Made by a program: the position numbers and the translations under genes
Assembly (NCBI GenBank): GCA_900143615.1
Contig: FREU01000003.1
Span: 62,001 to 126,000 of the forward strand
Direction of reading: 5' to 3'
Source: Rhodobacteraceae bacterium Alg231-30
GTDB lineage: Bacteria; Pseudomonadota; Alphaproteobacteria; Rhodobacterales; Rhodobacteraceae
DNA: 64,000 nucleotides
The notes under the pieces: generated by a model
What the model saw: the letters and a program-made list of their open reading frames with translations, nothing else
Databases searched by the model: none
Told to the model about the DNA's origin: nothing
Shown here: one piece after another, positions 58,619 to 59,798 of the stretch
Numbering within the stretch: the first letter of the stretch is position 1
Layout: every line of letters starts with the position of its first letter

Positions 58619-58704
58619 GCAAAAAAAAGGGCCGAGCAATAAGCTCGGCCTAAGTCCAACAGGGAGGTATGAAGATGATGCGCTTTTAAGCAATCATCGC
58701 CTTC
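58619..58704 (-). ncRNA. Candidate AbcR-like sRNA downstream of the VtlR/LsrB-type regulator
   Basis: Predicted about 84-nt RNA. Signals in transcription order on the minus strand: -35 TTGAAC (58734-58739), 17-nt spacer, -10 TAATTC (58711-58716); a hairpin (58673-58682 / 58689-58697); a single-stranded CCTCCC (58661-58666), complementary to a Shine-Dalgarno; and a strong terminator (GGCCGAGC stem, 58629-58636 / 58642-58649) with a T tract. AbcR sRNAs of Rhizobiales use CCTCCC-like seeds and are activated by VtlR/LsrB. Existence and family are inference. Confidence 0.5.
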
Positions 58705-58770
58705 GAGTGTTGAATTAGTAGTCGGTTTGCAAACGTTCAAGGGGTAACATGTCGCACCCGCAGCATTCCG

Positions 58771-58791
58771 GCTATGCGATTTGTGCATAGC
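58771..58791. promoter_or_regulatory. LysR-type dyad upstream of the candidate sRNA
   Basis: Perfect 7-bp dyad GCTATGC-N7-GCATAGC, which contains T-N11-A, the LysR box. It abuts the stop of the lysR gene and sits about 77 bp before the predicted sRNA start, near the usual -65 site. Confidence 0.6.
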
Positions 58792-59697
58792 TCAGGAAAT
58801 ATCTTTTGCCGCCAGTTGTTTGCGGTGCGAAAAGATCTCTTGCTGAACAAAGTCACGGAACGCGGAAATCCGCTTGGATTGGCGCAACTCTTCCGGATAA
58901 GCCAAAAATACTGGAACTTCGGCTGACCCGGTTTCGGGCAATACACGTTGAAGGTTCGGGAAATCTTGAATCACGTAGTCGGGTAGAACGCCGATGCCCA
59001 GATCATGCAGAACCGCCTGAAGGACGCCAAAGTAGTTGTTCACATACAACATTGAGTTGATGTTGTTTGCCAGCAGGCTCTGAACAAAAGTCGCCCCTGC
59101 GCCAACTTGTTCTGAATTCACATTCTGGCAAATCAGCCGATGTTCGTTGAGATCGGAGAGCTGGGTCGGTGTGCCGTGGCTGGCCAGATACTCGGGAGTT
59201 GCATAGAGGCGCATGTGCACGCTCATCAAGCGCTTGCGAATAAGATCGGCCTGGCTTGGTTCTTTCATTCGGATCGCAAGGTCGGCCTCGCGCATCGGTA
59301 GGTCCAAGACCCGTTCTTCCAGCATCAGATCGATGTTGAGATCCGGATACTTTTTGTAAAGCTGCGGCAGGCGGGGCGCGAGCCAAAGGGTGCCAAAGCC
59401 AATTGTTGTGGTGACGCGCAGTTCGCCGAACACTTCCTCTTCGCTGTCGCGAATACGTGCGGCGGCAGCGTCGAGACGTTTTGACATGGCGGAGGTGGCG
59501 TCAAACAGCAACTCACCTTGCTCGGTCAGAATCAGACCGCGGGCATGGCGGTGAAAGAGCGTGGCATTCAGCGATTCTTCGAGCGCACGAATCTGGCGGG
59601 ACACCGCAGATTGAGACAGATGCAGCACATCACCGGCGTGGGTCAGGCTACCCGCATCCGCGACGGCGTGAAAGATTCTGAGTTTGTCCCAATCCAT
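58792..59697 (-). CDS. LysR-family regulator, VtlR/LsrB-like
   Basis: A 301-residue LysR protein: winged HTH at the N terminus (DKLRIFHAVADAGSLTHAGD, LSQSAVSRQIRALEESLNAT) and LFHRHARGLILTEQGELLFD, then an effector domain (about 95-290, including FGELRVTTTIGFG and DLPMREADLAIRM). This opening is very like VtlR/LsrB of Rhizobiales, which activate abcR sRNAs. ATG 59697 (MDWDKLRIF) is chosen; the ORF to 59727 is not supported. It is divergent from the indolepyruvate oxidoreductase. Confidence 0.92.
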   Translation of the reverse strand: MDWDKLRIFHAVADAGSLTHAGDVLHLSQSAVSRQIRALEESLNATLFHRHARGLILTEQGELLFDATSAMSKRLDAAAARIRDSEEEVFGELRVTTTIGFGTLWLAPRLPQLYKKYPDLNIDLMLEERVLDLPMREADLAIRMKEPSQADLIRKRLMSVHMRLYATPEYLASHGTPTQLSDLNEHRLICQNVNSEQVGAGATFVQSLLANNINSMLYVNNYFGVLQAVLHDLGIGVLPDYVIQDFPNLQRVLPETGSAEVPVFLAYPEELRQSKRISAFRDFVQQEIFSHRKQLAAKDIS

Positions 59698-59798
59698 TTC
59701 GGCAACTTTCGTAAGGCTTTGTCCCATTTAGACGAAACGGAGACTGAACAAAACATATCTTAAGCGAGAAAACCTTAATGCAGGAAGAAATTTATTGC

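Follow-up and report, generated by a model that had tools for sequence, protein, structure and literature searches.

A Probable AbcR1-Like Circuit in the Rhodobacteraceae: An LsrB-Type Regulator Beside a Counterpart of the SorY Small RNA

A LysR-type regulator gene and a small RNA (sRNA) gene stand side by side in the window (the whole 64,000-nt stretch of DNA analysed here, from Rhodobacteraceae bacterium Alg231-30, whose genome is called the source genome below). By its sequence relationships the regulator is a single-copy orthologue of VtlR/LsrB, and the sRNA is a counterpart of SorY, a characterised stress sRNA of Rhodobacter sphaeroides. We consider it very probable that LsrB activates SorY through tandem boxes for a LysR-type transcriptional regulator (LTTR) upstream of an RpoH-like promoter, in a circuit like that of AbcR1. 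This reading is drawn from the orthology of the regulator, the conservation and spacing of the box, SorY genes that lie away from lysR and have kept the box, synteny, and the DUF1127 genes to which the motif leads. The RNA and the regulator are of known kinds; the link that joins them appears to be undescribed as far as we searched and is strongly supported by comparison alone. If true, the riboregulation of photo-oxidative stress by SorY and CcsR in Rhodobacter and the VtlR/LsrB-AbcR circuits of plant and animal associates would be one old module, two sRNA circuits previously studied apart would become linked, and the missing transcriptional activator would be named for both SorY and ccaF1-CcsR.

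The original prediction, made from the sequence of the window, had the regulator and an AbcR-like RNA as its target side by side, separated by the box, which our comparisons support, and described this arrangement as not known at the locus. The RNA is already known as SorY, and the adjacency of regulator and target has already been described, since abcR1 and abcR2 are reported downstream of vtlR in A. tumefaciens (PMC7486931). LysR control of SorY was not found in the literature searched, which was open-access only and did not take in the founding SorY paper, so the link may be in print. Within the available portions of the SorY literature the sole occurrence of LysR is a LeuO reference (PMC11089165), and the available portion of the CcaF1 paper contains none (PMC10253847). 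The same open-access search returned nothing joining SorY with AbcR, AbcR with a Rhodobacteraceae sRNA, or LsrB with the CcsR/CIN1 locus.

Architecture of the Locus

All features described here, apart from the divergent neighbour of lysR, lie on the minus strand of the window. The lysR gene (58792..59727) carries PF00126 and PF03466; the listed open reading frame (ORF) starts at ATG 59727, the conserved start MDWDKLRIF is at 59697, and the TGA stop reads directly at 58794-58792. Its upstream neighbour is a divergent indolepyruvate ferredoxin oxidoreductase gene. Directly after the stop codon begins box 1 (58771..58791), a perfect 21-bp dyad GCTATGC-N7-GCATAGC of T-N11-A geometry, whose core ATGC-N7-GCAT was read at 58774-58788. 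LTTRs conventionally use a recognition site and an activation site. Box 1 is the predicted LsrB recognition site. An imperfect dyad, ATGCTG...CGACAT (box 2, 58749..58766), separates it from the -35 element and is the putative activation site. The promoter follows as CTTGAA (58736..58741) and, after 16 nt, ACTAATT (58713..58719), of which the commonest form in relatives is CCTAAAT. The sRNA of about 86 nt (58621..58706) has its start placed by analogy with the published R. sphaeroides transcription start site (TSS) and its end at the T run. It comprises a 5' hairpin (58671..58704) in the predicted folds of the window RNA and its relatives, a conserved ACCTCCCTGTTGGACTT segment (58652..58668, from the alignment of relatives) containing the anti-Shine-Dalgarno-like CCTCCC (58667-58662), and an intrinsic terminator, GGCCGAGC-TTATT-GCTCGGCC plus T run (58621..58650; stem 58650-58630, 8 T).

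Direct reading found the dyad, promoter, hairpin, CCTCCC and terminator after the lysR stop as predicted, and the coordinates given with the prediction were right. The promoter originally proposed, TTGAAC (58740-58735)-N17-TAATTC, is present as read, and it can also be written as CTTGAA-N16-ACTAATT, close to the RpoH1 pattern. The dyad is the sole zero-mismatch match within the window; at up to 3 mismatches there are 4 matches against 3.16 expected, so these looser matches are at chance level. A terminator scan of the window found 1 against 0.8 expected, and a sigma-70 scan did not report the promoter before the sRNA. Taken singly, the parts are weak, and it is their conservation, described below, that lifts them above chance.

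An Orthologue of LsrB/VtlR

The assignment of the LysR to the VtlR/LsrB type is supported by a PDB match, a search of the source genome, a tree and the recognition helix. The best PDB match of the window LysR is 9hh1 (E 5.8e-74; next PDB match 1.5e-31), the deposit for A. tumefaciens LsrB (PMC11975290). Searched against the source genome, A. tumefaciens LsrB has the window LysR as its top hit at 251 bits, with the next LysR at 125; the two are best hits both ways, the reverse direction being the window LysR against PDB chains, not the whole Agrobacterium genome. At E<=1e-60 orthologues were found in 192/198 genomes of the family and 102/190 of the class, one in each matching genome. These counts do not fit the description of LsrB as unique to Rhizobiales (PMC11975290); high conservation of VtlR across alphaproteobacteria is already the claim made by the title of a paper from 2015, to which that work and others refer. 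The tree, built from 44 chosen rows, has a Rhodobacteraceae clade (90/78) and a Rhizobiales clade (100/100) among LsrB-type proteins. One (L306) of three very-long-branched paralogues falls inside the LsrB-type group at an open fork.

The recognition helix and the cysteines were compared in an alignment of 282 proteins longer than 250 aa: 116 Rhodobacteraceae rows (which contain two genomes twice), 87 from other alphaproteobacteria and 79 of a Rhizobiaceae set. The helix stretch LSQSAxSRQ is 96-100% conserved per position in each of the three sets. The redox cysteines C144 and C273 (A. tumefaciens numbering) occur in 79/79 Rhizobiaceae-set rows and in 0/116 Rhodobacteraceae rows; among the other alphaproteobacteria C144 is found in 7/87 and C273 in 0/87. 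We do not take these cysteines as defining the wider LsrB group, and their absence from the Rhodobacteraceae rows means that the input signal of LsrB there is probably different from the Rhizobial one. The window LysR has a cysteine in HRLICQNVN that is present in 99/116 Rhodobacteraceae rows and is not usual at that position in either of the other sets, making it a candidate lineage-specific sensor residue.

A Counterpart of SorY

The sRNA matches the SorY model RF02651 over its whole length (58703-58622; 65.3 bits, E 3.3e-12, model 1-83 of 83; cmscan), with lesser matches to SorX (43.2 bits, E 1.5e-8) and suhB/mmgR (26.8 bits). The RF02651 gathering cut-off of 111 bits is not reached, so we name the RNA a SorY counterpart and do not file it under the Rfam cut-off. 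Across the family the model gives a match at E<=0.001 in 185/198 genomes, and 1/198 passes the cut-off; it is so strict that annotation by cut-off will miss most copies. In the sole genome over it (G051) the model match is at 1632645, and the published TSS of R. sphaeroides SorY, which has its own promoter, is at 1,632,642 (PMC6238624). From these two positions we take G051 to be R. sphaeroides 2.4.1. A lysR of the same type lies directly upstream of SorY in G051, and lysR is present in 28/30 loci picked by SorY score (L002 and 27 more). Alignment to the R. sphaeroides TSS sets the start of the window RNA at 58706 and centres box 1 at -75 in both. The reported target of R. sphaeroides SorY is takP mRNA (PMC6238624); the RNA is also described as Hfq-interacting and RpoHI/RpoHII-dependent.

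The plan of the RNA is well conserved. A 5' hairpin of at least 6 bp was predicted in 110/111 relatives, with a mean z of -3.8 and values under -1 in 109. The outer pairs of this stem occur as GC, AT, TA and CG; MAFFT misaligns its 3' arm, and the pairs were tallied from each sequence's own fold, so that they are standard pairs by construction. The terminator has at least 6 bp in 110/111, and ACCTCCCTGTTGGAC is invariant in the 20 relatives (chosen of 111) that were aligned. The claim that CCTCCC is unpaired needs qualifying: the fold predicted for the window RNA places 2/6 of its bases inside a weak 2-bp mini-hairpin, and at least 5/6 are free in only 5/111 relatives, the cause in their predicted folds being a weak CC/GG mini-hairpin. 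Perfect seed complements, AACAGGGAGG, occur at 3 places in the source genome, one of which is SorY's own complement.

Conservation of the Box and Promoter

The family set holds 117 loci (120 minus 3 duplicates). Thirty were chosen by SorY score; lysR score or list order decided the others, apart from G105 and G034, added for their displaced SorY; L006 and L024 are without lysR, leaving 115 lysR loci. A CCTCC core lies 110-279 nt after the lysR stop in 111/115. Before SorY, ATGC-N7-GCAT is exact in 85/111 relatives and has at most one mismatch in 106/111 (107/111 if a position before the promoter is not required), and 15 other gaps (0-6, 8-15) give 0-21 exact matches, the 21 belonging to gap 10, the spacing of box 2. 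The dyad core, the CCTCC core and the terminator are all retained in most of the Rhodobacteraceae loci read.

The distance from box to promoter is also constrained. The box ends 31 or 32 nt before the -35 element in 97/111 relatives. In 3/111 the interval is 21-22 nt, shorter by about one helical turn, and in 11/111 it is 6-19 nt; in these last the match that scores best is mostly box 2. The first half-site of box 2 has T in 100% and G in 97% of the 67 relatives with 32-nt spacing. The -35 element of the 111 relatives is CTTGAT in 63 and CTTGAA in 29, in a search that favoured CTTGAA-like sites and so leans to that consensus, and the spacer is 16 in 103/111, with other spacers scored slightly down. 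The published RpoH1 pattern, CTTGAA-N16-CCTATAT, and that of sigma-70, CTTGAC-N17-CTATAT (PMC8844928), have the same geometry, so the sequence does not decide the sigma factor.

Genomes in which the two genes have parted are informative. In G034 the coordinates put ~174 kb between SorY and lysR; the box before SorY is exact (L006), and the lysR locus (L126) shows neither a SorY motif over 691 nt nor an exact core over 260 nt. In G105 the distance is 1.5 kb, and the exact box again stays with SorY (L024). Two genomes have lysR and no SorY core downstream: G164 (L152) in 688 nt, and G102 (L161) in 380 nt, with no SorY match genome-wide. Upstream of lysR, the exact box occurs in 0/114 Rhodobacteraceae loci, 2/86 of other families and 0/80 of the Rhizobiaceae set, and a one-mismatch box in 9/114, 11/86 and 9/80, respectively.

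LsrB Loci in Other Families

Outside the family, 87/99 loci were read (12 were omitted for contig ends, as second species of a genus or for lowest scores), and 84/87 had enough downstream sequence. CCTCCY occurs within 450 nt after lsrB in 62/84 (reversed sequence 22/84; Fisher 9e-10) and a box within 400 nt, one mismatch allowed, in 59/84 (reversed sequence 9/84; Fisher 1e-15), the Fisher values being a guide only as the compared genomes are related. Further controls for CCTCCY and box gave 12 and 9 of 82 farther downstream, and 3 and 7 of 87 in coding sequence. In the Rhizobiaceae set, counted with no control alongside, CCTCCY is found in 76/80, the exact core in 37/80 and the core with at most one mismatch in 73/80. 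A fixed distance from box to -35 was considered as a rule outside the family and rejected, with 13/84 loci having one of eight distances to TTG like those in Rhodobacteraceae. In the A. tumefaciens locus (L225) the published consensus for LsrB, GCAT-N3-TG-N3-T (PMC8844928), falls on the right half-box and the bases after it. Three loci of other alphaproteobacteria (L037, L041, L289) have two or more units of box and CCTCCY behind lsrB, which suggests sRNA duplication. Contigs titled Arenimonas (L260) and Bacillus subtilis (L304) bear a Rhizobiales-type lsrB locus, and these are probably mislabelled or contaminated records.

Membership of the RNA in the AbcR family was also considered and rejected. 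A search with the AbcR model (RF02345, ar15; alpha-r15), proposed with the original prediction, gave no match in the source genome at E<=1. This separate search is the proper AbcR test, as the cmscan list (7 matches, no AbcR model) keeps only the best of a clan. As a positive control, ar15 finds two genes over the cut-off in Agrobacterium genomosp. 13 (121.7 and 68.5 bits), 225 and 425 nt after lsrB, which is SorY's place in the window. As an AbcR gene would, the window RNA gene directly follows the LsrB gene, and its promoter contains an LTTR box. In our reading the RNA would work like AbcR1, and we do not file it as AbcR.

DUF1127 Genes and CcsR-Type Repeats

The bare core ATGC-N7-GCAT was rejected as a genome-wide finder, with 97 sites in the source genome and a backwards control that was unfair. 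Motifs that include the flanks took its place, with gaps of 8 and 9 as controls. A strict motif derived from SorY promoters has 18 matches in 12 genomes, 7 of them at SorY by coordinates. Six of the 11 non-SorY matches precede small ORFs, and all six are PF06568 DUF1127 genes, two of them in tandem in the source genome (boxes G000:C9:78173 and 78673). A looser motif has 70 matches in 30 genomes, 26 at SorY (assigned by coordinates, by eye) and 44 others at 43 loci, all of which were read. A DUF1127 ORF is present at 19 of these loci, CCTCCTCCC within 400 nt at 20, either at 23 and neither at 20. The gap 8/9 control (61 matches in 30 genomes, both gaps together; 30 loci, 29 sites, examined) has DUF1127 and/or CCTCCTCCC at 0/30 loci examined (vs 23/43; Fisher 2e-7), and the 20/43 with neither target class are about the chance expectation from the 61 control matches. 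The six proteins behind the DUF1127 profile come from genomes in which none of its 19 matches lies.

The box does not precede every DUF1127 gene. In the source genome 3/7 have the exact core upstream and 4/7 do not, and a fourth gene (L426) has a one-mismatch box with the same flank. Three of the DUF1127 genes stand in tandem within ~1.3 kb (G000:C9:77873-79193; L315, L323, L425, L426, L430), two with an exact LsrB-type core box and the third with a one-mismatch box. In the Agrobacterium genome the exact core is found at 0/6 DUF1127 genes, and 2/6 (L420 and L422) have a one-mismatch box that also fits GCAT-N3-TG-N3-T. We take the products of atu1667, BAB1_0914 and BAB2_0512 to be DUF1127 proteins. 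VtlR is reported to activate directly atu1667 and its B. abortus orthologues, described as small proteins (PMC7486931), and three DUF1127 proteins of B. abortus are linked to fucose use (PMC12501420).

In G051 a box precedes a 71-aa DUF1127 ORF followed by a long CCTCCTCCC repeat array (L332). The ccaF1-CcsR1-4 operon of R. sphaeroides has been described (PMC12501420, PMC10253847), and by the box, the 71-aa ORF and the repeats, not by locus tag, we take L332 to be this operon. It is described as RpoHI/RpoHII-dependent, with no LysR named in the available portion of the source (PMC10253847). At four other loci (L366, L368, L376, L377) the box is followed by CCTCCTCCC hairpins and the search found no DUF1127 ORF; these are possibly CcsR-like sRNA genes without a protein gene. 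In two genera (L364 in G175, L385 in G123) the motif near position 700 precedes a similar small protein, DFVDGTAFN...KYGNGPEQIARWARS..., whose gene is a possible further LsrB target.

Proposed Circuit and Alternative Explanations

We propose that the LysR protein would bind box 1 as its recognition site, centred at -75, and box 2 adjoining the -35 element, and that the bound protein would activate SorY from a promoter of the CTTGAA-N16-CCTAAAT type that is also RpoHI/RpoHII-dependent in R. sphaeroides. SorY would act through its CCUCCCUGUUGG segment on the ribosome-binding sites of transporter mRNAs, takP being the published target in R. sphaeroides. Binding and activation at box 1 and the mode of action of the seed are what we infer from the comparisons. 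Further probable targets of LsrB activation are DUF1127 genes and the CCUCCUCCC sRNAs that follow these genes in many genomes. Several points weigh against the LsrB-SorY reading: the RpoHI/RpoHII dependence with no LysR named, the distance rule lost outside the family, the 97 bare cores, the 20/43 targetless loci, the 37/80 exact cores in the Rhizobiaceae set, the DUF1127 genes without an exact core, the absent cysteines, and the two lysR loci without a SorY core (L152, L161).

Some of these points would suit a different owner of the boxes, another LTTR or a stress factor, with lysR a neighbour by descent only. The targetless 20/43 loci favour such a regulator, as does the R. sphaeroides literature, which in its available portions names sigma factors only. 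We nonetheless hold this to be very improbable given the T-N11-A geometry of the box, a recognition helix nearly identical to that of Rhizobial LsrB, and the LsrB consensus overlying the right half of the box at L225 and also at L420 and L422. LTTRs can repress, and the box stands directly behind the lysR stop codon, both of which are compatible with LsrB binding there to repress SorY or merely to autoregulate lysR. Set against this are a box centre at -75, upstream of the -35 element and in mostly fixed phase, which is activator geometry, the box that goes with SorY and not with lysR in G034, the rarity of the box upstream of lysR itself in the family, and the fact that the Rhizobial counterparts are reported as activators; we regard repression or autoregulation as very improbable. 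It is extremely improbable that the dyad is an RNA element, a lysR 3' hairpin or terminator, with SorY purely the output of an RpoH-type promoter. No T run follows the dyad in the window, a gap of exactly 7 predominates, the box precedes SorY also where lysR is elsewhere, and the same motif precedes DUF1127 genes; these outweigh the position of the dyad just after lysR and the reported RpoHI/RpoHII dependence, which are what an RNA element has in its favour.

Activation of SorY by LsrB remains our preferred reading, and an AbcR1-like circuit of LsrB and sRNA is probably ancestral. We also lean, with less assurance, towards a broader proposal: that LsrB is an ancestral alphaproteobacterial activator dedicated to anti-Shine-Dalgarno sRNAs (AbcR1, SorY, CcsR-type RNAs and unnamed relatives) and to DUF1127 proteins, that Rhizobiales gained redox sensing through cysteines only later, and that the inputs from LsrB and RpoH, divided in S. 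meliloti between AbcR1 and AbcR2, come together at one promoter in Rhodobacteraceae.

Comparison With Known Systems

SorY of R. sphaeroides is the closest known relative of the window RNA. The two have a common RNA plan, with near-identical ACCTCCCTGTTGGACTT segment and terminator, and differ in that the window RNA scores under the gathering score of the model (65.3 against 111 bits). Of the ccaF1-CcsR1-4 and CIN1 loci, which pair DUF1127 genes with CcsR-like sRNAs, the one in G051 (L332) has an upstream box as at SorY; unlike the window locus, ccaF1-CcsR1-4 is a protein-sRNA operon elsewhere in the genome.

In Rhizobiales, VtlR/LsrB is reported to activate abcR1 and small-protein genes (PMC7486931, PMC8844928). 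The VtlR/LsrB-AbcR1 circuit of A. tumefaciens, B. abortus and S. meliloti and the window locus have in common an orthologous LTTR, a same-strand sRNA gene directly behind the regulator, and tandem T-N11-A boxes before the promoter together with a CCTCC-type motif in the RNA, and small DUF1127-type genes appear as a second target class in both Rhizobiales and Rhodobacteraceae. The differences are that the window RNA is not recognised by the ar15 model, that trxB, the neighbour of lsrB in Rhizobiales, does not neighbour lysR in the window, and that the redox cysteines of Rhizobial LsrB are absent from the window-type LysR. Finally, S. meliloti is reported to place LsrB and RpoH1 on separate copies, abcR1 and abcR2 (PMC8844928), whereas here the LsrB-type box and an RpoH-like core stand together at one promoter.
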